Source: Ulota crispa
Lineage: Eukaryota > Streptophyta > Bryopsida > Orthotrichales > Orthotrichaceae
Length of the DNA: 64,000 bases
Assembly: GCA_963920765.1 (NCBI GenBank)
Contig: OY987244.1
Span: 32,929,678 to 32,993,677, forward strand
Reading direction: 5' to 3'
Under the pieces are notes generated by a model. That model did not search any database and was not told where the DNA came from. It was given only the letters and a program-made list of their open reading frames with translations. Positions 17,365-61,874 of the stretch are shown one piece after another. A program made the translations under genes and the position numbers. Position 1 is the first letter of the stretch; each line of letters opens with the position of its first letter.

Positions 17365-17368
17365 TTAA

Positions 17369-26442: not shown

Positions 26443-26454
26443 TTAAGGCATTAA

Positions 26455-28176: not shown

Positions 28177-28180
28177 TTAA

Positions 28181-36715: not shown

Positions 36716-36719
36716 TTAA

Positions 36720-37607
36720 CCCCTGAAGGACCAAGCACAGTTTTTTTCAAAAAATACTCAAAACCGTCAAATCTAACGATTTGATCTCAAAAACATTTTT
36801 TTCAGAAAAGTTCAAATCTTACCATGGGATCTTGTAGTAGACTCCTTCAAGAACATACTCTAAATACTTTGTTAGATCTGACCATATGGTTTGAGAGATA
36901 TGATCATCTAGAGGTATTGTAGTAAATTTATATTATCCTTGCCTAAAATTATCAGGTGTGTTTGACCACATGTGGTGGACAATTTTTGCACTATAGGTGC
37001 TGAAGAGATTTATCCAACATGCTCTAAATCATGTTAGGAATATCTCTCCAAGTTTTTGTGATCAACCAAGACATGAAACACACCATTCATGGCCCTGCAT
37101 TGCAAACATGTGTTTGAAATTCACACTACACTAAGGTTTTTTGCCAACCAAGTTTTCTAAAGATATGTTGAAGAAAATGAAAATCCAAGCTGTAGATTGG
37201 AAGAGTTTAGCTTTATTGCCAATCTCAAGAAAGCAAGTTGGAAAAAGAATCAAATCTCTAATAATTATTGCAATTCAAAGGTTAATGTATTTATCAAATA
37301 CACTAATGTATTTACTTTGTACACTATTACTTTGGATAGATTCCAATGAAGGGTCATCCCTTCATTGGTTCCCCTTGGGAGAAGTCAACAAAAAAGGCAT
37401 GCCCAAGCTGCCCCTCCAACTAAAATTCACATGTTTATCCTTATAACTTGTGAACCATAGATCAAAATTCAGTAAAAGTTGTTCTTGCACATAGCTCTTG
37501 CAAAGCTCTACCTATGAAGAAAAATTTATAAAGTTTGGTCATAAATCGTAGTAGCATGACCCTACCCAAAATCCCATCCCTCGAAAGGATAAATGATCCT
37601 TTAAGGG
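36720..37607. mobile_element. TTAA-flanked element U1 (888 bp)
   Basis: Left CCCCTGAAGGACCAAG after TTAA; right GATCCTTTAAGGG followed by TTGA, a one-base-decayed TTAA. The interior is AT-rich and non-coding. Confidence 0.65.
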
Positions 37608-40600
37608 TTGAAGAGATCTATAATTTTTTGAGAAATAATCGTGAGACCCACATAAGGGTATCAAAGGAATTCTCCTTTCATATCAGAAAAATAAATCAAT
37701 AAATAAGTAAAAATCTCTAAAGTAGGTCTATTTTTGCCCTCACTTGATACCCTTAGTTATTGTTTCAAAATTACATGTTTCGTTTGAAATTGGTAGTTGA
37801 TTTCCGTTTTTTTGTTAAATTTTGTTGAATGGAGCTCTAGGAGGTTCTGGTAAGGTTTGAGGTTTCGTTGGAGTTTATTGCACCTCTAAACATGCAAGGA
37901 ACTTGTTTATTATATTGTGACAAAATCCACATTATGCATTAAAAAAGGTTGATATTTTCTTGCAAAAAATTCAATTTTGCATGTGATAACGCATAGAGAA
38001 AAATTTGTATCCTTGACTTTTGAAACCTCATGTTGTCTTCATATATTTTTGTGGATTATAAAATCCATAATAATTTCAACTGAAACCAATTCAAAATGAT
38101 CAAAACCATAAAAAAATCTATATCAACGTTGGAGAGTTTCTATCATTATAATTTTTTGGAACGTGAAATTCTCTATCACTTTGTCAAATTTGTCATTGGT
38201 TTCTTGTGAGTTATTTCACCCCATGTATTTAAAAAGGAATTTCAACTTCTCGAACGAGACTACGGAAACAAAACTTCTGTATGATGGGGAAAATTTGTTA
38301 AAGTGACTGAACCCAAAGGTTATAATTCAACACCTTTTGGAGTTTGTAAACAGCAATCAATTCAATTAGATGATTTAAATTGGATAGTTGTAGGGACATA
38401 CAATTGTGTCCTCCTCTTTTGTAGTATATGCATTTTCTCTTATCAAAGAGTGTAAATGTTATTATGAGTCACTATTTTCTTATAGTTGAATACATTGTTG
38501 TTGAATCCAAGTTTTATAATATTCAAGTTTTTTTTTCAATTTTGTTAAGTTTCTTAAACCACTTATTATTTGATAAGTTTTTGCTTGTGTAGCACCATTT
38601 TAGTTTGTAAAAGACTTGAAATTAACTCCAATATGCTAGTAAGAAGGGTTATTTTTCAAGAGGCCCTTATCTAAAGGACCATTACACCAACCCATTAAAT
38701 TTTCTAAACTTCCATTACTTATCTAATCGCCAATGGCGGGTCCAAGGATGTGGCCCCACAAAGCCCTAGAAAATATTTATTCTCATCCAAAAGATAATGC
38801 TGACCTTTCATATAATGCCCATAACTTTGGTTGTGTAATTTTTTTTTGTTTTTCATGTTTTGAATGGCTCTAATTGGAATATCTCAAAATTAATTGGATA
38901 AATAAAAAATGCAAAACAACAAAAACTCTCATTGAACTAAAATGATAAACTAGAGTTCCTTTCTATTAATAGGACATTAAAAGCTAGATAAGCATTGTTT
39001 TGAAGACAAACATGGATTTCAAAGTTAGAAATCACCCCAATTAAATGCTCATTGTTAAAAGAGTTTTCTCAATAAATATTGACATTTAAGGGAAATTTAC
39101 AAGTCAATGCATATGGTCAAATCTAAGATTTTACACCCCAAGTCATTTTTCTAGCTTTAACAAGGCTAAAATGCTTCTTAGACTTGCCAAAGGCAATTTT
39201 GATGATTCATCAAAACATACTCTTATACTGTTATTGTTACGTTGTAATCCTACAATTTATTTTTTATTATTTGCCAAACAAGAAATGTGAATGATGATTT
39301 ATTATCCAACAACCATCCTTGATTCAAGACAAAGAAGAGGTTGCAAACATTTATTTTATTTTTTCTTGTGAAGTGGGTGCATTGAATTTTTTTGCTAATT
39401 TCATGAATCTTTTAGAATGCTCATGAAATTGGGAGCAACATGTAAATTGTATAGGCACTGACTTTTTCTAAGGAAAATAACTTGTATGATGTGTTGCATA
39501 GATTGATCATATGTTGATAAGAAACACAATTGTGACTTTTCAGAAGCAATTTTCTACAAAAATTGTAGATCTTTGAAGAAGGTATTAACACCTTTAATTG
39601 CAAGCAATAGAAAATGCATATTATTTTTCTAAACAAAACACATCTAAACATAGATCGCACAATTTGATGCAAAACCAAGCACCAATTTTCCAAATCTTCA
39701 TCAACATTCAAATCAAGGTTTGAAATTTCTTACAAACTTTATATAACTTATTCAATTAATTCAATCAAAAGTTAAGTAAAAAAAAAACTCTCAAGTTGAT
39801 GTGAACATGAAAATTACAGTTTCGAAGCATTGAGTAGGAATGATATTAAACGCTCCATGTCACATGCCTAAGTTTAAATGGAAACAATAGCAACATACTA
39901 AAATAGACGGACTTAACTTAAAATCTATATATAAATAACCATTCTCAAAAAGCTTGGAGACTTGGCAATACATGCAAATTTATCCTATTCAAAGGTATCA
40001 AAACTCAATTATTTCATAATTTGTAGACTAGTTTTGTCACTTGTGTGTTCAAAGTTTGAACAATTGGAGAAAGTAAAGTATATCTCATTCTTATAGGAGT
40101 TTGATTTTTCATCTATTCATATATTAGTAGAGTCTTAAGTACATTTTTTTAGTGTTTCTTTGATATCAATCTCTAAAACTTTCTTTGTGATTGTATGTAG
40201 TTCAAAGAGCACAAGTTTATTTCACATTAAAATTAAAAAATTAAACTCAAAAGATGATCATTTACAAAAAAACGCCCCTGTAAATTTAGTTTTAAAAAAC
40301 CATTTTTAAAAGTCACAAAAATTAGGATTTCTAACACAAAAGTAAATACAATGATGAATCATTACTTTGGTCCCATAATCAAAATATGGTGGACTTTTGA
40401 ATCAATTGTTTCAAATATTTCAAATATTGTTGATATATGCTAGTTAGTGCAACCATAAATCCAACCTTAAACATATGATCTACTGCTCATTATCTATAAA
40501 CCTTGTTCTGAAATTTCGATTATTTATTATCCCAAATTGCGCTTTCTAATTCTTGGTTGCATTTTGGATAATCAAAAGTATCTCTTAGTTCTGAAAGCAA

Positions 40601-42248
40601 CATACTTGTACTATAGTGCATAACTATTTACATGGAATGTAGATGAAAATCAATAGATTCATGAAAATCCATTCAAATAAAAGTAACTCCTAGCTTTGAT
40701 CGACATATTCTTCTTCCCTAATGCTCAACTCATTTATCTAGTGAAGTTTCACAAGCTGCTGAAAAAATGGGTCCATTTTACTTTGGCCTGCTATCTCATA
40801 CTCCAGTCTTAACTGATGATTAACAAAAACTGATACCTGTTGAAACATTCAACTGCACATCAATTCCCAAGTTTTGATGGAACAATTTTGCAAAACCAAG
40901 ATATAGAGAGGTTAAGCACATCAATCGTGGTCTACAAACCATTGAGTGCATATAGCTCAAAATCAAATGAAAGAGGCTGGTTAAAATTAAGACAAAGCTA
41001 AGTTTAAGGAGAAACAATGAATGCGTACACATTATACATTATAAGCTTAATCAATAAACCAACAAAAAACTCTCCTTTTTTCAAAAATTGGAAGTTTTTC
41101 TAAATTAAATCAGTTGGCCAACATAATTGGTCAACACAAATGATCAAACATGATTGGGACTTTTCTACTCAAAAAGGTTCACCTATTCATGGAGTTAGTA
41201 AAAATTTGGTCAAAAACTTGTTGACCGTGTTAATCAAATTGTGAAAAAAGCAATTACATTTGATGTGACGTTTGGAATTCAAAAAAGGGGTATTAGAGAA
41301 CCTTTACCGGTTGTCTCCAGCCGGTTAGTTGGCGTGGACGGAGGGAACTTTTGGCATTTTCATTCATCACCAATGAAATGCTAGAGCGGCCTCGTCAAAT
41401 AGTTCACGGAAGACGATGACCTCGCAAGGCTCATCTTTTGCATAGCATACTTGATTTACGGTGTATTTGGATCCCACCCCTCAAATGTGCCTATGTGGCA
41501 CCTCTCCTTTGCAAAGTAAACCCACATTAACTGCAATTTTTATCCACTACTCCTGTAGCGGTTTGTGGTACAAGACAAGTTTCTGGTTGGAGTACCCAAA
41601 AAAGCTGTCCAATTTACAATGTCACTATGTGTTGGTGTGTCAAACACATTCAGTTTTTAATTAGAATAAAGTAAGACTTCATCAAATGTGGTTTTAATTT
41701 TCTACACCTATAACGTATCAAGAAAAAAAGTTTAATTACAACCAAAGATTTTTAAGTAATTTTATTTGATTTTTTAGTTTAAAAAATAAGTTTTGTCACA
41801 CTTACCTAGAATCCCCAAAATCAAGCATTTAAAATATCAAAAAAATTATTTTAATATCATTTTTGAATATGACCTACAATTACTTGTGTAGAGTACAAAA
41901 TAATTTATTTTATCAATAAAAATTTAATAAATTGTGCACTATAATTCTTGCAAATCCCAAAATTCAGGATTTTTTTTTACACCTATGAATGGATCCAAAA
42001 ATTTAATAAATTTAATAAAAATTCTTTAGACATATAAATCTTGATTCCATTGAGATGCACAATTTATTTTTTCTCATTTTAGGGTCTTTTTACTTGATCA
42101 AAATGAACAAATTAGACAAACTTTGGAGGTTTTAAACAAAAATAACCTAATTAGTGTGTTTAGAAAGTGATACCCCAACCGGATGCTTACCCTGCAGCTG
42201 GTGGAGATTGTACCCTTTGCCCAAGCAGTTCTGCTTTTGAGGCCCCTA
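37608..42248. other. Intergenic, AT-rich, no gene seen
   Basis: The longest stretch without recognised genes. A short inverted pair TAAGGGTATCAAAGG / CTTGATACCCTTA at about 37653-37758 may be a small MITE. A GC-richer patch at about 41280-41420 has no coding signal. Nothing else recognised. Confidence 0.45.
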
Positions 42249-42252
42249 TTAA

Positions 42253-43435
42253 CCCCTAAATGCCCAAGGCTCTTTTTGAGCTTTTAGGAATTTGTTCTAA
42301 GTTGAACAAAAAGCCAAAATTTTGATAAGTTATATATATTTTTTAAATTGTAACTGTACAAAATCAAACTACATATATTAGAGATCACAAAGGAAAAGAA
42401 AACGCAACAATATCATTTATGGATTGAAATTTTATAATGTTTGATCAAGAGGGTGTTAAAACTCTGAAAATGACTTGAAGTCTTTCAATCCTCTTTTCAC
42501 ATGTCAAACCTTTAAAAAATGGTCACATGACAAATATGAGATTAAAGGAAATAACATACATAACTCCAATCAATTTACGGTTTTTCTAAACCTCCTCTAC
42601 AATTTTTTTTTATGAATTTGTAGTGTATATTTTTCTCCAATGTCTAGTATATTTGAGGTTCATTTCAAAGAGCTAGCAACACAAAAAAAAGTCAAGACTG
42701 CAATGGACACCCTTGCACAAAATCTTGAATAGAAAAATCATAATTAATCAATTACAAAATCAAATTTTTGATGCTAAAATTAGACTTTAGAAAGAATAGT
42801 TGGATAATAAAATCTACTAAAAATAGCAACTTAGTTAAGTTTTATAGACGTTCAAATAGTGTTTTTTTTTTCTTGGCAAATTTTGCCAAAATCTTGCCTC
42901 AAAGTTCTTGTGGCTAATGATACACTAAAAAACTAAGGTGAAAAAGTGGATGAAATAGCCAGATCCATACTTCCACACACACATGATTTGCCAAATTTGG
43001 ATAAAATCAGCTTATAATAGTAAAATTTTGGATGAACATGCACATATTGTTCATACTTTCTAATTTCAGCAAAATTTTCCTTACCTTCGTGCATTCTAGG
43101 GCAAGGTCTGGGAAGAACCGAGTGCTAATTCAATGCTAGCCGATTGAAATCAGAAAAAACCGTTTGCAATTTATAAACTTTGGCTAAAAACCTGTCAAAA
43201 ACATTTTAAAATTTTATATACAGTATGAAATAGATAAAATAACAAAGAGAGCTCTTTGATAAACCGATTCAATATAGGAATTGAAGGAAATCTACCAAAA
43301 ATTCTCAAATATTTATAAGACCCTATTTTGAGTGTGGGTTACTCTACCTCCACAATTTTTTTTTTTAAGAAAATTTTGCGTTCAAAATATTGTCAACACC
43401 ATAATGTGGTGCCTTGTGCATTTAGCATTTAGGGA
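42253..43435. mobile_element. TTAA-flanked element U2 (1,183 bp, family A with insert)
   Basis: Left CCCCTAAATGCCCAAGGC after TTAA at 42249-42252; right GCATTTAGGGA before TTAA. The first 590 bp and the last 50 bp follow family A. About 500 bp between (42865-43376) is foreign and lacks TTAA borders, so it is either another insertion or a recombinant. Confidence 0.75.
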
Positions 43436-43439
43436 TTAA

Positions 43440-43995
43440 ACAGCTTCACCGAGTCCGTTGTTGGCCGGCATGGTGGAGATGCTCTCATATCCTTGCCATT
43501 TGGTCTGGTCTTGTAACTTACATTGTGGTGGACAAATGCTCGAACCCCATGCATATGATCATATAAATGTACCTCCGCGTAAGATTCGTTTTTTGTCATT
43601 TGATTTGAGCAGTGCAGAAAGTAATATTTCTAGAATGAAAATCCGTTTACGTTCATGCTTATCGCTGTCACTTGCAAATCATGTATAAAATCTTATTTCA
43701 TTATTAATAAAAAAGCTGCATTCATCCAACAATAGCAATTCTTAGTAGAAATATTGTTGCGTAGGTTAACCTCTAAGTGTCTGAAAATGCCTTTGCAGCC
43801 AATACAATATAACGTATTTTTCTTGTATTTGGAATGGATCCACATTTTTGTTATATTTGAGATCAACAAAGAAGTTGAAATATTGATCAATGCATTTCTA
43901 GTGAGCTATTTAAGATCTTAAATTAAAAAATTTTATTGATAACAAATGTCAATCATATGGCAATATATCTACTATTCCCATGGAACGTGCAAGGA
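43440..43995. other. Short intergenic gap, nothing firm
   Basis: A GC-richer patch at 43440-43600 has no recognised coding content. At about 43766 TTAACCTCTAAGTGTCTG resembles a lone TTAA-family left end without a matching right end. Confidence 0.35.
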
Positions 43996-43999
43996 TTAA

Positions 44000-44749
44000 C
44001 CCCTAAAGGACTATTGTCCCCTTATGGGACAATTGGGACCTTGGGCATGTACCTATGACTAAGCCAATTTTTATAATTTTTTTGAAACTCTTCAAACTTA
44101 CATATATGTGGGAAGCTTTTAATCATTCAATTTTAATTGATGAGTGAGAAGTTTTAGCTTGCGGGTAGATGTGGGACTCCCAAACCTCAATTTCTTTTGC
44201 CCCTTGTAAAATTTGGTGCTTTGATTTATTATTATTTTTTTCCAAGTTGTGATAGACTAAGATTCCTTAGTTTTCACCATTTGGATAAAAGTAACTCACA
44301 TTTATGAATTTTACATAAATCCTCCAATTTTGCCTAGTGTATATGCAAATTCTATGGCCTTACGTCATTGCAAGATTTTACAAAATATGATCCACACCTC
44401 CAATTCATTCAAAAATTCTCCCACCCTTACCTAACTTGGTCTTCACATGAAAAAAATAAAACTCCACTTTGTGTAGAGCAATTTTTTTGATGTAGGAGAG
44501 GTCAAATGCTTCTAAAAATTTTGGGCAATAAGGGAAAAAACTTGTTTTGCACTAAACATGTCAATATCTCACTTCTCTACATTTAGGATGACCTGCTTTT
44601 TTTTTCCACAAGTACCTCCCATAGTCTAGGGCAGAATCCTACGGTTGGAGTCATAAAGTAAAAGCAAATTTTCTACCTTTCTATTCATTGTCCAAGAAGT
44701 GACAATTTTCAATAACTTTTGCATAAAAAAGGGCTCAGACATTTAGGGG
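44000..44749. mobile_element. TTAA-flanked element U3 (750 bp)
   Basis: Left CCCCTAAAGGACTATTG after TTAA at 43996-43999; right CAGACATTTAGGGG before TTAA at 44750-44753, which it shares with U4. Its interior is related, inverted, to part of U10 (the CAAGTTGTGATAGACTAAG region). Confidence 0.82.
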
Positions 44750-44753
44750 TTAA

Positions 44754-45296
44754 CCCCTAAACGTCCAAGGGGGTAAGGGCAAAACATAGATGTATTTTAA
44801 AATGATACTTATGTAACTTTGATGAAGTTTGCTTCCAAAGAGAAAACCAAAACCATGATCTTTAGTAATTATCTATGTAGTCAGACATTCAAAAAAAGTT
44901 TTGGATTTTTATTTAATGAATTTAGAAGCATTTACCATTTAGTATTCACCAAAATTACAAATTTTATGCATAGATTTTAAAATTTGGTATGATTAGTTAA
45001 AAACAGACATTCTATTGTAAACTTCAAAAATGCAATCTTTTCAAAGGAGAGAACATAATTAATTTCCCAAAATAGTAAATTTTACAACACTAGCAAATAT
45101 TGAAGTCTTTGTCTTTGAAAAATTCTCATTGATGGAGTTCAACTTGGATTGACATGATTCAAGATGGGTTGGAAAGTAAACTTGATTTTCTATTACAAAA
45201 AAAATAAAAAATAAAAAAATAAAGTTTTCTTTTTGCCTCGGGCAGCCTGCAAAAATTGGGTAGCAATCAGAAAATGGTCGATTGAGCGCTTAGGAG
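44754..45296. mobile_element. TTAA-flanked element U4 (543 bp)
   Basis: Left CCCCTAAACGTCCAAGGGG, right GAGCGCTTAGGAG, TTAA on both sides (the left one shared with U3). It is non-coding. Confidence 0.75.
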
Positions 45297-45310
45297 TTAA
45301 GTAGCAAGAC

Positions 45311-45358
45311 CCACACTTAGTTTAACTTGTCACAAGTGATAAGTTAGACCAAGTGTGG
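45311..45358. repeat. Compact 48-bp hairpin
   Basis: CCACACTTAGTTTAACTTGTCAC pairs with the inverse of AAGTGATAAGTTAGACCAAGTGTGG over 23 positions; 20 match, and in RNA two of the three mismatches would be G-U pairs. It sits in the gap between U4 and U5. Too short for a typical MITE; a solo structure or remnant. Confidence 0.5.
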
Positions 45359-45445
45359 TATTGAAACTTAGTCTAAGGAGACAGTATTTCTACTAGCAAA
45401 TACAATCTCAAGGTTGTGAAGCATTTGAATGATATCAAATACTAG

Positions 45446-46377
45446 CCCCTAAAGGACTAAGCCTTTTTTTTCAAGTTAAAGTCACTGATAATTGCCACTT
45501 CTAGGAGAATGAGGAGAAAAGTAGGAAAAATTGTTTTTTTTAAATCTAGCCGTAGGATCTTGCTCTAGACTGGCAAAGGAACTTGTGGGAAAAAATAAAG
45601 TCAATTTAGATGGAGAGGAGTGAGATATTTACATTTAAAGTGCAAAAAAGAAGGTTTTTTCTTGCTGCCTAGAAATTTCAGAAGTCTTTGACCACTCTTA
45701 TATCAAAAAAATAACTCTATGCAAAGTTGAGGTTTACGTTTCCCATGTAGGAGATCAAGTTAGTTATATGTGGGAGAATTTTCAAATCAATTGGAACTAT
45801 ACAACACATGGGAAAAAAATAGTAAATATAAAGAAGTAGAGAATGAGTCAAAATACTAAATTGTTTAGAATTTAATTGTTGAAACAAAAAATGCAAATCT
45901 CAATGGTTGTAATGTTGTGATAAGCAATTTACTTCTTTTGGTTTAGTTTTTTTTTCCAAAATAATGAAAATTGAGTAAAATAAAGGACTTCAAAGTTTAT
46001 TTTAGAGTAGAGAACCCCTAGCTACCCGCAAACAAAAACTCCTCATAACTTTCATCTCATTGATTGAAATTGAATGATTCAAAGCTTCTCATGTATAAAA
46101 AAATCTAAAGAACCAATTCCAAAAAACAAAATTCAAAAAATGTAATTTTTAAAAAAAAATTTGGGCTGCCCAGACGGGTAGTCCTCCCCAAATTTTCATA
46201 AAATCATGCATAATTTCTTCGTCAAATGTCAAAATGAAGAAAATATTAGATGCCCACATAGATCTTTGAATTCCCCACCTACAATAAAAGTTTCAAAAAA
46301 TTGCACAAAATAGTTTAACCATAGGTACATGCCCAAAATCCATTTGTCCCCCGAATAGACAAACATTCCTTTAGGGG
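45446..46377. mobile_element. TTAA-family element U5 (932 bp), decayed flanks
   Basis: Left CCCCTAAAGGACTAAGCC after CTAG; right ATTCCTTTAGGGG before CTAA. Its right third is family B text (CATGCCCAAAATCC, ACAAAATAGTTTAACC) and its left part resembles U10. The flank bases are no longer TTAA. Confidence 0.6.
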
Positions 46378-46383
46378 CTAAGG

Positions 46384-46706
46384 TAGGAGGCTCATAAATG
46401 GAGCACACAAGGGCTAAAACTGAATTTTGGGTAGGTGAAATTTCTTGAGATATTTTTCAGTAAATCTTCCTTAAATGATAAGAAGAATTGCATCTACCTA
46501 AGTTGGTTCATGTTTTTTGAAACTTTGTGGAATTAGTTATGAAACTTTGAAGTGGAAAGACCACAGGGCTCTAAATAGAGCACCTCCTCAAATGTATAAT
46601 ACATAATGTGTACATTATTGGAGGGCAGTAAAAAACAACATACACAAATAGAGTACTTTTGAAGAGGTGCTCCATTTTAGAGCATGCTCCGAATTAGAGC
46701 CTCCTA
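46384..46706. mobile_element. MITE with TAGGAGGCTC ends
   Basis: Inverted ends TAGGAGGCTC and GAGCCTCCTA, extended by GGAGCA / TGCTCC words. An inner inverted pair GAGCACCTCCTC / GAAGAGGTGCTC lies at about 46575 and 46665. About 323 bp, non-coding; the flanking TA is compatible with a 2-bp duplication. Confidence 0.6.
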
Positions 46707-46959
46707 TATATAGGAAGAATACATAGTCAAACATTATCTCAAAATAGTTTGTATGGTAAAATTGCACAAAATTGTCCCGCCTCCCAGTAGTTATCACAAG
46801 TTTGAATTTCCATATGTAGCTCAAGAAGCCATGCCCACTGCATAAAGTGCAAATTTTTAAATTCAACAATCTGATATTCACAATTTTTTTGTAAATTCCA
46901 ATAGATATATTGCTGAATATGATGATTGGCTTTGGTGTGAAAACTGATGCAAGCGAGGT

Positions 46960-47290
46960 GCATTGTTCCGTGACTGGATCTTCATCCACACCTTTCCAGC
47001 TCATTTCAAATCCAGGATCAACAAAAGCGTTGTCAATCTAACAACCCCGGGAAACCCCAGCTGGACCACTTTCGAAGGGGTAGTCATCCTCAGCAAAGTT
47101 GACCAGACCTGGTCTTTCCCTGCATGCAACAATGTTTTCATGCTGGTAAGGAGTCGCATCAATTTCTGAAGCATGAGGCCCATATCAACTGTTCACACAT
47201 CATCACAAAGCCAGAGTCTTTGCTGAATTTCCCCACTGGACTGCAGGTGCGTTGCACGGCCAGTTCAGTGCAGTATTCAATGGCTTCTAC
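46960..47290 (+). other. GC-richer coding-like island, function unknown
   Basis: An open plus-strand frame (about 46963-47140) with balanced composition ends in FMLV just before a GTAAGG donor-like site. A GCAG acceptor-like site lies near 47246. It contrasts with the AT-rich repeats around it, so it may be a remnant or exon of a gene, but no domain is recognised and no complete gene can be built. Confidence 0.2.
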
Positions 47291-47321
47291 ACTGCATAAT
47301 CTTGCTTTTAGGTTGCCTTAA

Positions 47322-47392
47322 CCCCTACATGCCCAAGACCCCAAATTCTGGTAGTTTTTACACTATAATTTTGTGTCACAGGCATTTAGGGG
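47322..47392. mobile_element. TTAA-flanked element U6, only 71 bp
   Basis: Left CCCCTACATGCCCAAG and right CAGGCATTTAGGGG enclose about 40 bp. TTAA lies at 47318-47321 and 47393-47396. It is the smallest member, essentially two ends. Confidence 0.8.
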
Positions 47393-47396
47393 TTAA

Positions 47397-48297
47397 CAAC
47401 TATGTTGTTTTGTCCTAAGAAAGTACCTAAGAATTCATTGTTAGATCATTTGGAGACGCATGCAACTCTCTAAATAACAAGATCTCACATGATTTACAAC
47501 GTGGATGTTGTTGATTTTGTCTTTTTGCAACTTTATTGTTGTTGCTAGGTCCATTGAAATTTGTTTCTTTCAATAATTATTGATGAAATTTACTATAATA
47601 TCAATAAGTATTTATATAGTGTAAAATGTTGAGAAAGTAGTGTAGGCCAACTTAAAATACATGAATATTACATTTAGGTTGCCTAAACCTGAACAATTAG
47701 GTTGCCTTATCTTGAGAGTTACCTCATGACTCATTACTTGACCACAAGGAGATATATACAACTCTCTACATACTACAATTTTCTTTGAGTTACAACTTGG
47801 ACGATGCTAGGTTGTTATTTTTGCATTTTTGTTGTTATTCCCAAACCCTTTAAAACTTACTGTAACAAGTATTGATGAAAATGACTGAAATATCAATAAA
47901 TATTTATGTATTGTAAAATATTGAGACATTCGGGTGGGGGCAATTTAAACGCAGTATTCAGTGAGTTTTTTCTTATGATTCAGCAGGTAAGAGCTGCCCC
48001 TTTCCAGGCAGTCAGCGTCCTGCACAAAACCATCAAATACGCATGTTGCATGAAATATGCAGTCTTGCACATGCCATGGGTGCCATCGTACCATGCATGT
48101 GGCTGTACTGTGTTTTCCCACAGCTGCTGGAGTGCTGGACACTCTGACATTCTCACTTGACCTGCATCAAAACGTGCCCAAAATCTCCCCGTGCAGGAGC
48201 TCCACAAGCTGATTTGGTATGTAAGTTAGGAGCTAAGTTACCTCTCACTATGCACAAAACCATTGTCCCTTGTGTCTTAACCCCAAAGTGTCATAGG
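47397..48297. other. Intergenic, tandem-like duplicated segment, no gene
   Basis: Two related blocks (about 47397-47690 and 47690-47940) share TTAGGTTGCCT, ATGCAACTCTC/ATACAACTCTC, and ATATCAATAAGTATTTAT/ATATCAATAAATATTTAT, so this is an old tandem duplication. A GC-richer patch at 47980-48200 carries no recognised protein. Confidence 0.45.
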
Positions 48298-48306
48298 GGA
48301 CAGAAA

Positions 48307-48719
48307 GGGAATTGATATGTGTACCACACAATTTCAATTACTGTACCACACTCTCGGGGAAAATTTTAGATTTTTACAATCCAAAACTTGAATTTGAGAA
48401 TTTGGAATTCACATTTGGATTTAGAGATCATGATTTAGTCTAGAACCATAAAAAAAGTTGCAATTCAATAACACCCAATGAAAATGTTTATCAATTTTTA
48501 CAGACAAAAGTAAAAGTAACACTTTTCTCCCTAGTTAAACTTTTTCATTGGGTGTTGTTGAATTGCAACTTTTTTTATGATTCTAGACAAAATCATGGTC
48601 TCTAAGCCCAAATCTGAATTCCAAATTCTCAAATTCAGCTTTTTGATGGTAGAAATCTAAAATTTTCCTCAAGAGTGTGGTACAGTAATTGAAAGGGTGT
48701 GGTACACATATCAATTCCC
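48307..48719. mobile_element. Foldback MITE, 9-bp TSD, 413 bp (copy 2)
   Basis: Sister of 9128-9540 with the same length. Ends GGGAATTGATATGTG and CACATATCAATTCCC; flanks GGACAGAAA and GGATAGAAA (8/9). Mutator-type, non-coding. Confidence 0.85.
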
Positions 48720-48754
48720 GGATAGAAATTGTCCTTGACCAATTGTTGAACTTA

Positions 48755-49325
48755 GATAAAACCCAACCAAATTACTATTTTTAGTAGTTTATATTTTTGA
48801 AAAGTTCTTTCTAAAGCTTGGTTTTAGATTCAACAATTTGATTCTACAAATGATTGATTATAATTTTTTTATTCAAGAATTTAGTGCATAAGTGTTCATT
48901 GCTATCTTGATTTTATGTAGTGTTGATGTCTCTTGGGAATGAGCCTCAAATACACTAGATCTTTGAGAAAAAATCACATTAGAAATTCATTAAAAAAAAA
49001 TTTAGAGTAGATTTTGAGAAGTCATAAATTGGTTGGGGTTATGCATGTTAGACCCTTGAACCTCATATTTTTTTGTTGACCAACTTTCTTAAATATGACA
49101 CGTGAAAAGAAGATTGAAAGACTTCAAATCACTTTCACAATTTTAACACCCTCATGATTAAACATTATAATCTTTCAATTCGTAAGAGATATTGTTGTGT
49201 TTTCTTTATAAGGAGATCTCTAACATGTCGTTTGATTTTATACAGTTACAATTCAAAAAATAATTGATTCAGCTTATCAAAATGTTGACTTTTTGTTCAA
49301 ATTAGAGCAAATTCCTAGAAACCCC
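48755..49325. mobile_element. TTAA family A fragment lacking both ends
   Basis: Follows family A text (TTTTTAGTAGTTTATAT, CCTCAAATACACTAGATC, CACCCTCATGATTAAACAT) for about 570 bp, but neither terminal CCCCTAAA motif is present. Confidence 0.65.
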
Positions 49326-49581
49326 AGAAATGCAATGTCACTTTCAGGTTAAGAAAAAAAGTTAGACAACAAAACCATGCTCTTCAACACATCTTGACCT
49401 CACTAGGCATCCTCCTTTTAGGCACAAGTAAGAGCCCCAAAAACAATAAAAGGAGAGCCTTGTTACTCGTGCAATTCCGAAGCCCAATTAACTTTGTATA
49501 TGTTGACGAACACGTGGAGGTTGATTGCAAGTCGGGTGGAAAAATTGCAAAACGACATGTCAAAGGATCAGTTATACTTAA

Positions 49582-50225
49582 CCCCTAAATGTTCAAGGCC
49601 TTTGTGAACTTCTTGGCATTTTTAAGAAAGTGAACAATTAACCAACCTATTCATAAATCTCATCAAGTTTTTTTAAACTGTAACCGTACAAATTTAAACT
49701 TGATATGTTAGAAATTACATGGAAAAAGAAAACACAACAATATCACTTATAGTTTGAAAGATTATAACGTTTAAACATGAAGGTTTCAAAATTGCAAAAT
49801 TGATTTGAAGTTTTCTAATCCTCATTTCACATGTCAAATCTAAAAAGTTGGTCATCAAAAAAATATAAGGTTTAAGGTCATTACATGTTTAACTTTAATC
49901 AATTTATAGCTTTCAAAATCTACTCCCATATTTTTTAAAATGGATTTCTAATGCAGGTTTTTCTCCAAGCTCTAGTGTATTTGAGGCTCATTTTCAAGAT
50001 CTTCCAACACTAGAAAACTCAAGATTGCAATGGACACCCTTGTACAAAATCTTGAGTAGAAAAATCATGAACATTCATTTTTTAAATCAGATTTTTGATA
50101 CTAAAAATAGACTTCAAAACAAACTTGTGTTCAAAAGAAAATACTAAAAACAGTGATTTGATAACATTTTATTCATCTTCAAAGTTTTGTAAACATCCAA
50201 ATTGGGTGCCTTGGGCATTTAGGGG
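49582..50225. mobile_element. TTAA-flanked element U8 (644 bp, family A)
   Basis: Left CCCCTAAATGTTCAAGGCC, right GCCTTGGGCATTTAGGGG, TTAA at 49578-49581 and 50226-50229. Closest visible relative of T3 (25798-26442), one base shorter. Confidence 0.88.
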
Positions 50226-50373
50226 TTAACAACCAAGTTGATAATGTTCCGCTCTCCAAGTTTTCTCCAAGTGCCATTTAGGAGCGCAAGGCTGTGAGCT
50301 TCCAATTTAACTTTGCAAACAAATTGGGGACCATTTACTTCCATTACTCTAGTATACCTTTTTTATACCTTAA

Positions 50374-51283
50374 CCCCTAAAATTCTTTTGTATATAGAGG
50401 GCCAAAATTGTTTCAAAGTATTAGTCCCCAAACTAGGGTCAAATATTCATTGAAACTTATTTTTTCACAAATCCAACCGTAGGATCCTTTGGTTGACTTG
50501 CACAACTACATTGTCCCAAATTTTAGAATGAACATCCCCACCAATTGCAAGATCAATGTGCCTAAACTTCAAAATGTAGGCTTTTCTAATCCTTCTAGAA
50601 GGTGAAGTTTTATTTTTCAAACTTTTTAGAGAAAAACACGTATGTTGTATTTCTTGTGCAATTTTTGCAATATGTTGGAAAATGGGTTGAAAGCATATAT
50701 AAAAAAGGTCAACCAAAAAAAACTTTAGATTCATTTTTACAAAAATTGTAAAGTGAAAGGTATTGATGAATGAAAGATATAACTAATATGCTAATAAGTT
50801 TTGGAAGAATTTGAAAATTGTTAACCCTAATGGTGAGAATGCTCTAATAGACAATCAATAACTTTATTTTTCCTTTTCATTTGAAAATTTCAAAATTGAG
50901 AGTAAAAGATAATTTTATATGTTTTTTCTACCCTCTTCCTACCTTCATTGCCCGCAAAAGAAAACTCCTATTAACTCTTACCTCATTATTTGGGATTGAG
51001 TGATTCAACTTTTTTTGAGTAGATATCATTCTATAAAATTGTATAAAAATAAAAATAAAAATTTTAGAATATATTTTTTGCTGCCCGATTTGACATTGAA
51101 ATTGAAAAAACCTTATAACTTTTGCATAACTTATTGGAATGACATGAAATAAAGCTTCAAATTTAGATTATGATGAGTAGCATCCATCCTAAAAATTTCA
51201 TGAAAAAGTTCCAAATTATGAAGTCAATAGAGCCTGCCTGAGTTCTCATAAAGCCCAAAGTGGGCTGCTTGGGCCTTTAGGGG
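50374..51283. mobile_element. TTAA-flanked element U9 (910 bp)
   Basis: Left CCCCTAAAATTC after TTAA at 50370-50373; right GCTTGGGCCTTTAGGGG before TTAA at 51284-51287, shared with U10. Non-coding; the 89-codon frame at 50465-50734 has no domain content. Confidence 0.8.
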
Positions 51284-51287
51284 TTAA

Positions 51288-52229
51288 CCTCTAGAGGCCC
51301 AAGCCCTTTTTCTTGTGAAAGTCACTCAAAACTGTCATTTTGGGGAATGAGTAGAAATGAAGGAGAATTTGTTTTCTTTTTTGAAAATCCAATAGTAGGA
51401 TCTTGCCCTAGACTATGGGAGGTCTTTGTGTGAAAAAAACATCTCATTCTAGATATGGAGTAGTGAGATATTGAAATCTAAAGTGAAGTTTTTTTTTTCC
51501 CCTTATTGCCCAAAAATTTCAGAAGCCTTTGATAGCTCCTATATAAAAAAAAAAAAAAACTGCTCTACGCAAAGTTGAGGTTTATTATTTCCATGTAGAA
51601 GACCAAGTTAGGTAAGTGGGGAGAATTTTCAAATGAATTGGAGGTGTGGATCAAATTTTGTAAAATCTGGCAATGCCGTAAGGCCATGAAATTTAGATAT
51701 ACACTAGGCAAAATTGGAGGGTATGTGTAAAATTCAAGAATTTGAAAAATTGTGATCCAAATGCTGAAAACCAAGGAAATTTAGTCTACTACAACTTGGA
51801 AAAAAATGTCAAAAAATAAATACACAAATTGCTCAAGGAGGTAAAGCACAAAATTTTGCAAGGGCCAAAAGGAATGGAGGTTTGGAAGTCTCATACCTAT
51901 CCGCAAACTAAAGCTTCTCATAACTTTCATCTCATAAATCAAAAGTGAATGATTCAAAGCTTCCCAAATATATATAAATCTAAAGAGCCAATTTCATATC
52001 TAAATTTACACTTTTTCTTTTCAGCTGCCTGATTCTTCCTTGTTTTCCATTTATTCATGCATAACCTCTATAATAAATACTGGAATGAAGAAAAAACTAG
52101 ATGCCCACTTAGGTCTTTGATCTCCCTGTCTTCCATAAAAGTTTCAGGAAATCACACAAAGTAGTTTAGCTATAGCTACCTGCCCAAAACCCCACTTGGC
52201 CCCCAAGGGACCACTTGGACAATTAGGGG
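51288..52229. mobile_element. TTAA-family element U10 (942 bp)
   Basis: Left CCTCTAGAGGCCCAAG directly after the TTAA shared with U9; right CTTGGACAATTAGGGG before CTAG (decayed TTAA). The interior combines U5-like and family B text. Confidence 0.72.
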
Positions 52230-52901
52230 CTAGACCCTCAAGGCCTGTTGTCACATGGAGGGACAAATAATGTTTTGGGCAGGTACTTAAGGCTGAATTA
52301 CTTTGTGTGGTTTTCTGAAACTTTCATAGAAGATAGGGAGATCAAAGACCTAGGTAGTCATCTAACGTTTCTTCATTCCAACATTTATTGAAGAAGTTAT
52401 GCATGGATTTCAAAAACTCAGGGGAGGACCAGCAACCTGAAAACTTTAAAAAATTGCATAATTTTACATAAGATTTTGAATTCCTCACCTTCCATAAAAG
52501 TTTCAAAAAATCATACTCCCTCCGTCCCAAAATGATCTTCCGGATGGCCTTAGAGTCTTGTCCCAAAATGATTTTCCTACTGTGACTAGGACAAATAGCC
52601 TGCAAAATGAATCCCTTTGTAATGAACATTATGACAAAAGCTACAATAGCTGGGCCCAGAGAATGAACTAATAATTGAATGAGCATGACATTGGGAAGCT
52701 CCATGGCAGCTTCAACCACAGGAGACGGGTTTGAAGTTCATGGGTTGGCAATTACCCTGAAGTCTCTGAAGGTCATGGGTTCAGAGGTCGATGTGATTTC
52801 CTTGTGGTTTGGCCACTCGTGGTTGGAGGTAATTTAACTTGTTGCACTAAAAAGAATTGAAATTCTTATTTTGCAATAAAATTCTGTTTCATTTGTGTTA
52901 A

Positions 52902-55900
52902 CCCCTAAAGGACCAAGGGTGTTTTTGAGAAAAAATCTCAGAAACTACCAACTTTTAGTGCATTGCCCAAAATCAAAAATCAAAACCATTTTTCTCAATT
53001 TCAACCATACAAAAGTTTGTAAAATCACTAAACCAACATGTGCAAAGAATTTCAGCCCACTTGACAGCGATGATTTTAAGATTATAACGTTTGAAGTGAG
53101 AAAAACAACTTTTTTTCATTCTTGCAAAACAAGGTCAACGGACTTTGAGCCTTCCTAGAGTAAAATTTTTACTCTACACAAATTTGAGCATTTTGACCAT
53201 TCACAAGTATATGATGTTACATTCACTCATGAAATTTCATATGCAAAAATATAATTTAGGTTATTCTAAATCACCCTGCAATGTAAGGAGGTTTAGTGAC
53301 TTGGCAACACATTAGTCATTCTTCCATGATTTCTTGTGCAATGTGGAAGTCTTTCACTTGAAATCTAAACTACGAAAGATTGGAGACAAACATTTGGAAT
53401 GTGTGAAAAAAAGTTTCAAGAGCTTTGGATGTATAGATTGAAAGATAATAGGGCTTGAAGTTAAAGGAATTCTTTTGTATTGAAACTGCCCAAACATAGT
53501 TAACAAAGTTTGACTCCCTTCAAAATGTGATGTGAGAGCTCTTTTTTTTTTTTTTTTTTTTTTTTTTGGCAATTGTACACCATGTTTTTCAAGTTACATA
53601 CTTGCCAAATTTCAAAAGTTGATGAGAGTTTTAGCATAAGATTCTCCAAAGATGCTCAAACTGCCCAAATTGCCCAATTTCTTTTGGGCAACATAACTTT
53701 TGAAGTGGGCATCTGATTGGGAAAAAAAACTAGATTTCCACTTGGGGGATACATATTTGCACCTTGTGTAACAATTTTGAGAACATCCAATAAAAATTGA
53801 CTCCATATGACCCTACTCGAGTTCTCAAGTGGTTGTTGAACAACCACTTGGTCTTTTAGGGGTTAATTCCTAAGTGCCCCAGCGACCCGATTTTGGTCGC
53901 TCCAGATTTTAAAGCCTTGTTTTGAGGCATTGGATCTAACTTTTTGGTCTTGCTATAAACTACAATTGTGAAAGCATTCAAGTTGTTCATGTCAATGGAG
54001 TAATGGGGAGGAAAGTCAAATTGTTGTATAAGCGCTACAAGAGATTTGATTTGGTGAAACACCATATGGGGCAGCGGAGGCGGGTTAGCAAGCAACGTTT
54101 TACATGCTGCAACCGGTCAATACCCCATGCAAGCTTCCTTGTGTAAGTTTTGTGGTAGCGGGAAAGTTGTTGGCAAGGGTTCAAGCATGTTCTAAACCCT
54201 TATTATGGCAACCGTCACCAATCGTGCCGGTCATTGTTTTCCGTGCATTAGCAATTTGAAGCCCTAAAACTTGACATAAAAAGAAGTGCAGTTTTCAATA
54301 ATTTACAAGTGTGTGCATTCACATCTAATCTTGCTGCTCACAAAATTTGAGATGAATCCGGGGCTTAAAAGAATTTTGTAAAAATCACCAAATAGTAACT
54401 ACCTACCAAAAAATGAGATTTTGTCATCACATGTTATTTGATCAAATGTTATAATCTCCCATCTCCTGTGGTGGATTGTTCCCAAAATTTGCAAGCCATT
54501 TTCTAAGTAGGTGTTCCATTATTTTCAATGGTCATTTTTTGTGGATCATCCGATTGACCAAGATACAATGCATCAAAGTCGTCGGTCTCCAAAACCCTGA
54601 TTTTGGTGGATACGGCCTGGGTGCTCAGGGGTTAATAGAAGAAAAAAAAAATTGTACGAAGTAACCATGTGGTTGGCTAGTACGCGGTAGTTGTATTGTA
54701 AAATCTTTTCATTTACAAAAACACAACAGTATTCACTGGGTTGAAGGAAAGCTCTCCACAATTTGCCCAAATGCAAGGCCAAAAAATGTGAAAATCCACA
54801 AGGTTAAAAACCACAGAGTCATCAGTTAGACACTTCAAATCTATACCGTTGTTCCTCGGTTAACCCTTAATCCCTAAAGGCCCAAGTGTCCCCTCGGGGA
54901 CAAATGGGATTTCGGGCATGTACCTCTGGCTAAACTACTTTGTGTAATTTTTTGAAGCTTTTATGGAAGATGGAGAATTCAAATATATGTGTGGGCATCT
55001 AGTTTTTCCTTCATTCCAACATTCATTAAATAAGTTTAAAATGAATTTTTGAAAAACAGGGGTTGACGGGCAGCCCAAAAACTTCTTCACAAATTGCGTT
55101 TTTAAAAAATGTAAATCTAAGTTTGATTCTTTAGACTTACGTATATGTGGGAAGCTTTGATTCATTCAATTTTGATTGATGAGATGAAAGTTATGAGAAG
55201 CTGTAGTTTGCAAGTAGGTGTAGAAAATCTCAAAACCATGCCTACCCGCAAAATAAAACTTCTCATAAATTTCATCTCATCAATCAAAACTGAATGATTC
55301 AAAACTTCCCATATATACGTGAGTCTAAAGAACCAACAGTAGATTTTTATTTTAAAAAATGAAATTTTTGAAGAAGTTTTTGGGATGCCCGCCCACCCTT
55401 GTTTTTCAAAAGTTCATTTTTAACTTCTTCAATACATGTCGGAATGAAGAAAAAATTAGATGTCTACACAAATCTTTGAATTCCACATCTTCCATAAAAG
55501 TTTCAAAAAATCACACTAAGTAGTTTAGCCACAATTACATGCCCGAGATCCCATTTGTCCCCCAAGGGGAAACTTGGACCTCTAGGGGTTAATGCCTTAA
55601 CCCCTAAATGCCCAAGGCACCCAATTTGGGTGTTTGCAAAACTTTGAAGATGAACAAAATCTTATCAACTCACTATTTTTGGTATTTTCTTTTGAACACA
55701 AGCTTGTTTTGAAGTCTGTTTTCAACAACAAAAATCTGATTTTGAAAATGAATGTTCATGATTTTTCTACTCAAGATTTTGTACAAGGGTGTCCACTGCA
55801 ATCTTGAGTTTTCTAGTGTTGGAAGATCTTGAAAATGAGCCTCAAATACACTAGAGCTTGGAGAAAAATCCGCATTAGGAATCCATTTAAAAAAAATACA

Positions 55901-56245
55901 AGAGTAGATTTTGAAAGCCATAAATTGGTTGAGGTTAAACATGTAATGACCTTAAACCTCATATTTTTTTGATAACCAAATTTTTAGATTTGAAATGTGA
56001 AATGAGGATTAGAAAACTTCAAGTCACTTTTGCAATTTTAACACCTTCATGTTCAAACGTTATAATCTTTCAAACTATAAGGAATATTTTTTTGTTATTT
56101 TTTTCCATGTAATCTCTAAGATGTCAAGTTTAAATTTGTATGGTTACAATTTAAAATAACTTGATGAGATTTATGAAAAGGTTGATTGATTGTTCACTTT
56201 CCTAAAAATACCAAGAAGTTTAGAAAGGCCTTGGGCATTTAGGGG
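52902..56245. mobile_element. Nested TTAA elements T6, T5, T4 and T3 in MLE copy B
   Basis: Mirror set at 52902-53862 (T6), 53867-54631 (T5), 54871-55588 (T4) and 55601-56245 (T3), with the same TTAA junctions as in copy A. T2 and T1 follow at 56973-57246 and 60348-60978. They were therefore present before the MLE duplicated. Confidence 0.88.
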
Positions 56246-58544
56246 TTAAGGGACGTGGCCTTCCATGACCAAGGTAGTCACCAAAATGATCTAATTACTG
56301 GACCGATAAGTACATTCTTTTTGTTTCTACATTGAACAATGAACTCATCTATCGAACACTTTTGATGCTTGGTATCAAAGATTCAAAGGTCAAACAAATT
56401 CTAAACATAGGAGGAAGAGGAATTACTTTGAAAACATGTAAGATAACAATGAAATTTAGTTAGGTCATTTTTTTGCAAAAATCTTACCTATTTTTTGAAA
56501 ATAGTATTCCAATTTTTTCTTATTTTTTCATCCATAAAATACTCTAAAATGAACTTACTTCATTAATAGTTTACATACAACATACACTTTTCATGACAAC
56601 ATTGACATTTTGAATACAACATGGATGAAAAATATATAAGTGATGGATGGATGGAAATAACTATAATTTGTTAGACTTGCTTGTATTTTAGGGTGCACAT
56701 TGTCATTGCTACCAAGGAAATTGAAATGAATTGTTCCACATTAGTTATCGTAAATACAACAAAAAACGACCACATTAGCATTTGAGGACAATTCCTAAAT
56801 ATACTCTGCAGTACATTGTCTTTGTCTCAATTAGGTCTTCATGGTAAGGATTTCACGTTATCTTAGTATAGTTATACTATATACTTTGTCTATTTTTTGG
56901 ACAATGTGTGAATATGTTAAGAATTTCTAAGAGACTCCTCACTATTTCTAGGTAATTCTATTGAAGAATGTGATTTTTTCTCCAAGATCTAGTGTATTTG
57001 AGGCTCATGTCCGATAGCCTTCAACACTAGAAAATTTAGATTTGCAATGGACACACTAACTTGCACAAAATTTTGGATAGAGAAATCATAATCATTCATT
57101 TTTTTAATCAGATTTTTGATGCTAAAACTAGACTTCATATAGAATTTTTCAAAGATACAAACTACTACAAATAGCATTTTAGTAATGTTTTATTTAACTT
57201 CAAAGTATTGTTGACACGGGAATTTGGTGACTCTAGCATTTAGGGGTTAATTTAAAAAAAAAATAGAAGTACATATAATATTGAACAAAAAATTGAATTG
57301 ATGAATAATAGAATAAAAATTACAACCTTTTCTATATATAGAAAAATACAACCAAGAATAAAATACACAACTCCAAATAGAGATTGGTTGAGAGAAAGTG
57401 TCATGGTGCAACTTCCAATGACCTGCTTGTTTTTTTAGAGATGAGAAAGGGGTACATGCATAAAGTGGAAAGATGGGTACATGCATAAAGTGGAAAGATG
57501 GGTACATGCATAAAGTGGAAAGATGGGTACATGCATAAAGTGGAAAGATGGGTATATGCATAAAGTGGGGAGAGGGGTACATGCATCAAGTGGTTAAAAT
57601 GAGGCTTTACTTTGAATCAAGTTAGTGGCATTTGTGAGTTAACCAATCACTCATGCTTAAAATTAGCCACATTTTGTAATAAGATTGCTAGCCCAAAATT
57701 TTCTTATTACAAGGACATTCTTGTTACCTCCGTTGGTAAAATGGGTACCTACACTTGTATTTCCTAAGATGGAAATGATACACAATAATCCCAATGGTGA
57801 GACTACTCTACCTAACAAAGTTAATCCTCACTAATATTATTTTTTTGAGAATTTGTTAAAATTGCATTAAAAAAATCAATTCCATAAGTTTTTTTTTTCA
57901 AGATATGTCTTGGTTGCCTAAGAAAGAACATTAGCAATGTTTTGAGCCCTCCAAGAGCCCTCTCCAAAACACCAAAAAGGAACCCAAGGCATGTACTTCT
58001 TACAACAAACAAATCACTAATTCCCTATTTCCGCTCACCCTTTGAATTCAATGCAATCACAAAAACTATACTATTATGTTATCCCTATTGGTCAAAAACT
58101 ATGGGTACAAATGCACAATAGGGCCATAAACTCTACTGTATTCTACTTGAATAGATGAGTGAAGTACTTGGATAGTGAGTAGTGAGTACATTTACACATT
58201 TTATGAGTACAATGCCCTTTTTTTATTGTTTTGGATTGTGCATGTGGCTTAGGTCCTTCATATAAGGTTGCAAAAGGTATGAGTGCCCTTTTGTTGTACT
58301 CATGCTAGCCAATTAATAGCTTGGTTTGTCAAACCTGAGGGGGCTCTTGGAGGGCTCAAAACTTTGCTAATGAGATTTTTCACAACTGTCAAATTACTAA
58401 TCCAAACAAAGGCTTTTATGTAAATGAAAGTACAATGTATAAGACCCAAGCTTTAAAAAACAATTCAAGTTCTTGGATTTTCCCCCTCAACCCACCAAAC
58501 TAAAACTCTAGCTTATTGCACCACAATTTTCTCAATTCAATGAT

Positions 58545-60059: not shown

Positions 60060-61874
60060 CCCTGCATGAAAATGAAATGACCTTAATAATAAAGCTTTGT
60101 TTTAAAGGTCAACACGAGAATCACATATTAAGAGCACTAATCTATCCATACTTAGACAAATGAAGAAAAGAGGGCGGAATATGATTTTTAAAGTTGATTA
60201 TGCTTTGGACTTCAATCAAATACCACACCATTCCTATTTGATGTACTACTCTGGTTAGGATTAAGATTGAAATATGATTATATACAAAGTAATAAAAAAT
60301 CACATATGCTACATTAGTTGTATGTGGAATAGAGTCGGAACTCTTAATCCCTAAATGCTTGAGGCCTTTTTTGAGCTTTGAGGAATTTGCTTCAAATTAA
60401 ACAAAAAAGCAACATTTTAATAAGTTGCATCAAGTTCTTTTAAATTATAACCATACAAATTCAAATTAGATATGTTAGAAGTCACATAGGAAAAGAAAAC
60501 ACAACAATGTCACTTATGGATTGAAAGATTATAATGTTTGATCATGAGGGTGTTAAAACTACAAAAATGACTTGAAGTCTTTGAATCATCTTTTCACATG
60601 TTGGATCTAAAAATTGGTCACCACAAATTATAAGGTTGAAGGAAATAACATACATAACCCCAAAGACTTTATAGCTTTTCAAAAGCTCTTCTACAAATTT
60701 TTCAAGTGAATTTTTAATGTAAATTTTTCTCCAATATCTAGCGTATGTGAGGCTTATTTCCAAGAGCTCTCAACACTAGAGAAAGTCAAGACCCTTGCAC
60801 AAAAGCTTGATTAGAGAACTCATAATCAATTATTTTCAAAATCAGATTTTTGATCCTAAAACTAAACTTCACAAAGAATAAATCCAAAATGTAAACTACT
60901 AAAATAGAAGCTTAGTCATGTTTATTGAGCTTCACAGTATTGTTGACACCGAAATTTGGTGCCGCAGGCATTTAGGTGTTAAACCATGCCAATCTTGGAG
61001 CAATTACACCGTCTTCAAAATCAGTATGGAAGGAACGATTTTAGAACATCTTCAAAAAAAAGTTGCTCTTCCTAACTTTTGCATACAGTATCTAAATGTC
61101 ACATTCTTAGGTGCATGGAACTTCCTTTAATTTACCAAGAGAAAAAAAGGGAGGACCGATAAAGAATTGCTACAAAAAATAAATTAATTTTTGAGGTTGA
61201 CAAACTGAAAACACGGTCAGTTGAACATGTAAATGCTAATTATTAGGAGGCTTCAAACATAAAGTTTTTCAGGTGAATCGAGTCGCGATTCACCTCAGTG
61301 AATTCACTAGTGAACAATGAGGTGCCTCACCTCTGGAATTCACACCTAACGTGATTCATGTGAGGAGTGAACTTCATAAACTCACTTTTGTGAGGCATGA
61401 CCTCGCAGGTGTCTCAGATGCTTAGACGGCCGACTTATGCACAAAACCCTAACCGCAAACTCACGGGTATGTCAAACTTTGGACATACGAGTGAACAGAA
61501 ATAATTCACTACTGAGCGGGGAACCCTGTGAGGTCAGAAACTCGTAGACCAAATTCTATATTTAAAGCCCCCTATTGAAGCTCTAATGTGACATCTCTCC
61601 CTTTCTTGCAATGTCATCAATAACAATACTAAATGCAACATACACTGCATGCTCATTCATTCATAGAGGCTTGAAATCTAACTTTGACTTCTTGAAATTA
61701 GAGATTCTCGATAATACTCCGCATGCAGTCTAGAAAAGTTGCAAGCATCGCCCAAAGGAAGAAATAATGGCTAGTCATGAAGGTCAAAAGCTCAAAGCAT
61801 ACTGCAGGCCCAAACATTGATCAAAATTTTTTGAGATGTTTTAACCCGCACCAAAATCAACCTATCTTCTTATT

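Follow-up and report, generated by a model that had tools for sequence, protein, structure and literature searches.

Which kind of mobile element can occupy half of a stretch of land-plant DNA with short copies flanked by TTAA, and which enzyme moves it, is the question raised by a 64-kb region of Ulota crispa (contig OY987244.1, positions 32,929,678 to 32,993,677). This whole stretch is hereafter called the window and corresponds to C3:32929678-32993677 in the host genome of 274,817,297 bases (275 Mb) that was searched. The elements of the window are almost certainly non-autonomous piggyBac elements, moved by the transposase of longer elements in the same nuclear genome.

With up to five misses allowed, the ends in the window follow the consensus TTAA-CCCCTAAA(T/G)GNCCAAG. 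About 16 bp are conserved across families and at both ends (weighted by family), with termini 5'-CC..GG-3', and this terminal repeat lies inside the range of 12-19 bp that, together with the terminal motif CC[C/T]T, is given as a hallmark of piggyBac (PMC2872659). Loose ends, defined by at least 14 of 19 scored positions of TTAACCCCTAAAKGNCCAAG plus at least 9 of the first 12, number 45 in the window, including mirror copies inside the second copy of a presumed mariner-like element (MLE), versus 0-5 per shuffle in 20 Markov shuffles, a somewhat lenient control scanned only at TTAA or CCC positions. Exact CCCCTAAA occurs 21 times in the window, versus a mean of 2.33 (standard deviation 1.39, maximum 6) over 100 shuffles. 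These ends bound about 18 distinct elements of 71-1,183 bp with a G+C content of 28-43%, in agreement with the initial annotation, which had counted at least a dozen elements of 71 bp to 1.2 kb. The same annotation had estimated that they fill about half of 36.7-52.5 kb, and the listed elements cover 8,286 of the 15,797 bases (52%) of 36716-52512. The elements are bounded by TTAA, as it had noted, or by a word one or two letters away from it: CTAG/CTAA (45442-46381), CTAG (52230-52233) and TCAA (37611). The single element that it had placed at 17.1 kb is real, with its ends found.

Part of these elements lie in two inverted 10.2-kb MLE copies, 99.2% identical to each other (window 19318-29530 and 52513-62784), which we take to be mariner-like from the label of the initial annotation, the ends and a sub-threshold PF01498 match (E=0.0023). 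Each copy holds six TTAA elements, one of them truncated (24793), instead of the five first reported, and MLE copy 2 was inserted within a family B element. Since at least three further MLE copies exist in the host genome, the loaded 10-kb element seems to have moved as a whole. The elements are as follows, by window coordinates and with no strand assigned to any of them:

17120..17368, family E, 241 bp without the TTAAs; right end bears the palindrome
21120..21758, family A, in MLE copy 1; ends paired
24793..25076, truncated family A, left end plus about 280 bp; right end not found
25794..26446, family A, 645 bp; one-TTAA empty site in another MLE copy
26451..27176, family B fold-back; both halves resemble the family B palindrome end
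27408..28180, family D, 765 bp; one-TTAA empty site in another MLE copy
28177..29145, family C, 961 bp; TTAA 28177-28180 common with the family D element
36716..37611, family F; right end degenerate (TCAA)
42249..43439, family A with extra interior sequence, 1,183 bp
43996..44753, family B, 750 bp
44750..45300, family G; TTAA common with the preceding family B element; pairing of end 44750 with end 45300 tentative
45442..46381, family B; CTAG/CTAA flanks
47318..47396, 71-bp element, probably family A; sits in a host repeat
48277..49352, degenerate family A, split by a 415-bp fold-back of a different type; right end degenerate, placed by eye
49578..50229, family A, 644 bp
50370..51287, family H, 910 bp
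51284..52233, family B; TTAA common with the family H element
52230..52512, family B, left part of the element split by MLE copy 2
52898..53866, family C copy in MLE copy 2; ends paired
53863..54635, family D copy in MLE copy 2; ends paired
54867..55592, family B fold-back copy in MLE copy 2; ends paired
55597..56249, family A copy in MLE copy 2; ends paired
56967..57250, truncated family A copy in MLE copy 2
60344..60982, family A copy in MLE copy 2; ends paired
62785..62862, family B, right part of the element split by MLE copy 2; ends in TTAA

The interiors sort into eight groups, A-H, largely unrelated to one another. Family A comprises the elements at 21120, 24793, 25794, 42249, 48277, 49578 and probably 47318, and family B those at 26451, 43996, 45442, 51284 and 52230+62862, while C (28177), D (27408), E (17120), F (36716), G (44750) and H (50370) have a single member each. 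Three abutting pairs have one TTAA common to both members (28177-28180, 44750-44753 and 51284-51287), and a fourth has the common tetranucleotide CTAG at 52230-52233. A preference for insertion at the ends of existing elements finds no support: the four common tetranucleotides have P 0.24 when set against 119 TTAA sites in the dense region, and they appear unusual (P 0.006) if all 395 TTAA sites of the window are taken.

The role of TTAA can be read directly from related copies in the same genome, which stand in for the sister strains that the initial annotation had proposed comparing; a single TTAA is found at two clean empty sites. An MLE copy at C2:20713200-20715700, 90-92% identical in the aligned pieces, is without two of the insertions. 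The empty site of 25794-26446 contains exactly one TTAA (...GGCCACGTCCC-TTAA-GGCATTAACCCC), as does that of 27408-28180 (...TTTCTTCTA-TTAA-CCCCTAAAGGACC). In the latter case, the older element 28177-29145 has this TTAA as its outer flank, and an insertion into that TTAA therefore gave rise to the one common to the two elements. Thus, TTAA is the target and lies outside the element. Four diverged un-inserted host copies (68-76% alike over most of the length) carry one TTAA-like word (TTAC, TAAA and, twice, TCAA), which is weaker evidence that fits the same target; the TTAC and TAAA are those of the diverged un-inserted copies of the host repeat around the 71-bp element 47318-47396. For element 21120-21758, each of the five MLE copies seen in the genome has both flanks, separated by about 0.63 kb, and a genome search with the joined flanks matched filled copies only. 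The flanks of 13 elements, compared with no computed chance level, give no sign of a longer duplication beyond TTAA.

The enzyme is encoded outside the window. Pfam scans of 44 of the 57 frames of at least 58 aa listed for 36.6-57.3 kb revealed no transposase and returned three rows in all (E 0.068-0.22), each under its cut-off. Moreover, a tRNA scan of the window found none, and Rfam gave no match at gathering scores. In the host genome, PF13843 (DDE_Tnp_1_7) gives at least 120 rows at about 116 places, all over the cut-off (best E=1.3e-73), a lower bound because 116 of 528 candidates were scored, and none was found in 14 control genomes. An open 476-aa frame at L041:1728-3155 matches the solved piggyBac (6x67, E=4.1e-20) and also piggyBat (9c0f, E=5.8e-17). 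The best eight transposases are 30-57% alike pairwise in their best stretch, and therefore several old lineages exist, as judged from these comparisons. Two matches to PF13843 in two pieces, without stops (C1:1180709-1181995 and C8:19570986-19572215, with open frames of 563 and 472 aa), are possibly spliced or domesticated piggyBac genes. Equally scoring transposases in opposite orientation, 14-20 kb apart, were also observed at C2:36765124/36779670 and C7:18203169/18223004, and these pairs are perhaps inverted duplications.

Longer elements with such ends and a DDE_Tnp_1_7 domain, which the initial annotation had advised looking for, do exist: three with family B ends and two of a second lineage. 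The latter two surround transposases of the best eight, at C3:13130262-13135288 (5,027 bp by subtraction; ends CCCCTCATCGCCAAAG / CCCTTCATTGCCAATC) and C2:15046195-15051296 (5,102 bp by subtraction; ends CCCTTGACCGCCCAAG / CCCTTCACCGCCTAGC), and their ends are related to those of the window, with CCCTT at three of the four. When the 3' flanks were read at 20 further transposase places, a TTAA+CCC end facing the enzyme was present in 13 and CCCCTAAA in five. Four of these five CCCCTAAA ends, located 1,632-1,766 bp downstream of the domain, match family B starting at bp 1 and continuing for 447-498 bp (71-77%), and three of the four have a partner end 5,480-5,981 bp before the domain, delimiting these parents of family B:

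C5:24506226-24515054, 8,829 bp by subtraction, PF13843 between family B ends
C8:11097229-11105483, 8,255 bp by subtraction, PF13843 between family B ends
C9:12440860-12449389, 8,530 bp by subtraction, PF13843 between family B ends

Over 170-211 bp, the left ends of these parents resemble most family B copies at 78-86% (C5), 69-77% (C8) and 74-77% (C9). Since the PF13843-bearing elements match family B at both ends, family B is, by sequence comparison, made up of their internal-deletion derivatives, i.e., piggyBac elements from which the middle with the enzyme has been lost. The first 50 bp of the family F element at 36716 also match the end of a transposase-bearing element.

Conservation of the ends (weighted by family) drops after bp 16. 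Beyond the 16-bp repeat lies a palindrome, mostly at one end, whose letters differ between families and whose mean centre is bp 25.0. This is the highest of all centres under six settings, any centre as high occurs in 0 of 200 shuffles (one setting), and the peak is unmoved when any one of the eight families is left out. In the window, all eight families have a palindrome end in at least one copy. Of 31 distinct exact ends taken from the opening 0.62 Mb of contig C1, the score at bp 25 is at least 0.57 in 16 and at most 0.43 in 15. In piggyBac of T. ni, binding is symmetric over the first 16 bp, and the palindrome that follows at bp 17-33 is occupied by a dimer of the C-terminal domain of the transposase (PMC7351741). 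The middle of that palindrome is bp 25, as is the mean centre in the plant, and in both systems the palindrome comes after a terminal stretch of 16 bp. In T. ni piggyBac, both ends bear the same palindrome, placed at different depths (PMC11707139), whereas the plant palindrome occurs mostly at one. In piggyBat of Myotis lucifugus, which the plant system also resembles in the match of its transposase frame, an imperfect palindrome is described on the left end only, at about bp 19-32 by a reading of the spacing (PMC11707139). That left end comprises three repeated sites (PMC11707139), and the plant ends were examined for one only. By analogy, the plant palindromes are probably candidate sites for a dimer of the C-terminal domain. 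Their paired changes preserve the symmetry, e.g., GTGGCTGTTCAACAGCCAC and GTGGTTGTTCAACAACCAC, which is also what a hairpin needs, and the palindrome could serve some function other than dimer binding, such as a hairpin in DNA or RNA; this is unlikely, given the resemblance to the C-terminal-domain sites of piggyBac and piggyBat in both position and one-sidedness. In the mechanism favoured here, the longer elements in other parts of this nuclear genome would supply a piggyBac transposase, which would recognise the 16-bp terminal repeat and would also, probably, bind the palindrome just inside one end through its C-terminal-domain dimer. By cut-and-paste, it would then excise the element and insert it at TTAA, which would be duplicated, and families A and C-H would be moved by this enzyme or by a sister.

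Several observations weigh against this reading. Stops interrupt most transposase frames, and no CCCCTAAA end was found within 1.5 kb of any of the top eight transposase places. Among the 20 3' flanks, seven are without a TTAA+CCC end, and some of the ends present may belong to neighbouring short elements. For the C6 element, the fourth of those whose 3' end matches family B, no left end was found within 7 kb, and the fifth CCCCTAAA end (L064, about 2.1 kb beyond the domain) resembles family G. The proposal of the initial annotation, a non-autonomous family mobilised by a piggyBac-like transposase encoded elsewhere, is supported, most directly for family B with its enzyme-bearing parents; for families A and C-H, no parent was found in the flanks read at the best eight and the 20 further PF13843 places. 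The ends begin CCCCT, with C at bp 4 in 94%, versus the CC[C/T]T hallmark, CCC being present. Past the TTAA, with no chance level computed, agreement between the letters of the two flanks is 0.27-0.38 on one side. On the other it is 0.40-0.46, a value pushed up by three right flanks that are already the start of another element. As for the palindrome, the window copies at 24793, 42249 and 48277 are without it, and in the set from contig C1 bp 25 is only the second-best centre after bp 14, which falls in the terminal repeat by which this set was chosen. The family B parents centre at bp 24 (C5 1.0, perfect; C8 0.71) and C9 has none (best 0.43), while in the second lineage the left end at bp 25 scores 0.71 (C3) versus 0.29 (C2), and 3' ends score 0-0.43.

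The initial annotation had left room for ends belonging to another superfamily, and TTAA duplication at empty sites also fits Kolobok, which has been reported from some algae (PMC9587614). The termini of Kolobok are 5'-RR and YY-3' (PMC9587614), in contrast to 5'-CC..GG-3' in these elements, and the enzyme between the family B ends belongs to PF13843, the piggyBac family. A Kolobok origin is ruled out for family B by the termini together with this enzyme, and has a negligible probability for the elements as a whole. Sola3 uses TTAA as well, and the TTAA duplication is the only point in favour of Sola, to which practically no weight can be given against the PF13843 transposase lying between the family B ends, although no search aimed at Sola was made. 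The remaining alternative is that family B is piggyBac while A and C-H depend for their movement on another enzyme, one that evolved a similar end. The missing parents of A and C-H would suit this explanation, as would interiors largely unrelated to family B. However, A and C-H have the same 16-bp end, TTAA and subterminal palindrome as family B, and empty sites with one TTAA are known for one A and one D element, so that a separate enzyme is very improbable.

The population in the genome is large. The exact 20-bp end TTAACCCCTAAADGNCCAAG occurs 8,118 times in the genome, its reversed control 0 times, and in the window it is exact at 11 places, beside the 45 loose ends. If the ratio of this one chosen window holds, roughly 30,000 ends genome-wide may be guessed. 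The exact end pattern occurs 0 times in viral contigs and twice in prokaryote genomes, about the chance level by our own estimate. A search with the family A element 49578-50229, in which the best 40 of 4,910 first-look candidates were scored, yielded 39 other copies, each spanning 650-652 bp at 91-93%, plus a partial one at 74%. Because 39 copies sit at 91-93%, family A looks, among these best 40 of 4,910, like the product of one past burst rather than of present activity.

The superfamily is known; the scale and the host are new. The plant elements share with T. ni piggyBac the TTAA duplication, the C-rich ends and the transposase family, and differ from it in ends that begin CCCCT and in enzyme-bearing elements 5.0-8.8 kb long, some of which contain nested insertions. 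The coral CMITE elements are likewise short and flanked by TTAA, one family is piggyBac-derived, and tandem arrays and insertion at the TTAA of another element are described there as here (PMC2872659). CMITE elements measure about 100 bp and have conserved interiors (PMC2872659), whereas the plant elements range over 71-1,183 bp and fall into eight groups whose interiors are largely unrelated. In another land plant, the fern Ceratopteris richardii, 1,230 pieces amounting to 122 kb are labelled PiggyBac; there the name is an entry in a repeat table, with no ends, empty sites or enzyme given alongside it (PMC6890710). A grass genome table contains one PiggyBac entry (PMC8319324), and according to a 2025 paper piggyBac is found occasionally in plants, for example in red algae (PMC12732532). 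Judged by title and opening of the abstract, no openly licensed paper among those listed deals with the piggyBac elements of a land plant. A superfamily known mainly from animals, fungi and protists gains a new host and a large expansion, its range being extended to a land plant with thousands of copies in which enzyme-bearing elements are still recognisable. Plant enzymes also join a superfamily that serves as a genome tool, and two matters become testable: the palindrome as a code of enzyme specificity and the route by which the superfamily entered plants. On a judgement slightly short of even, this land plant may keep old and diverse piggyBac lineages, each with its swarm of short elements, in which enzymes and palindromes have changed together while the position near bp 25 has been kept since the split from animal piggyBac. 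If so, the palindromes would be a readable code of enzyme specificity.

Further observations concern piggyBac-related DNA. At L064 (C1:30793400-30794900), the CCCCTAAAGACCCAAGGGGGTAAGGGC end is like the left end of the family G element of the window (44750), and this locus is a possible parent of family G or a neighbouring short copy. An additional TTAA family of about 0.9 kb is present at L049:517-1429 and L051:729-1637, with ends like CCCTTTA(A/G)AGACCAC, and may represent the short relative of that lineage whose end is CCCTTTAGCGACCATGG (C4:3591922). The 415-bp fold-back of another kind, found in the window at 48307-48719 and 9126-9540 with halves about 80-85% alike, splits a family A element. 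Transposase-bearing piggyBac elements hold it too: two of them contain two copies each, and a third contains one (L072, L073 and L074). Since it is found inside piggyBac elements, this fold-back may favour piggyBac DNA.

Elsewhere in the window, a degenerate tandem array of AAAGATTCTC-like units extends over 10404-11024, with open frames of 104-128 aa. A helix-loop-helix domain is present at 32.9-33.4 kb, and a kinase fragment lies at 1.0-1.3 kb, the closest solved structures of which are the plant receptor kinases SOBIR1, BAK1 and BRI1.

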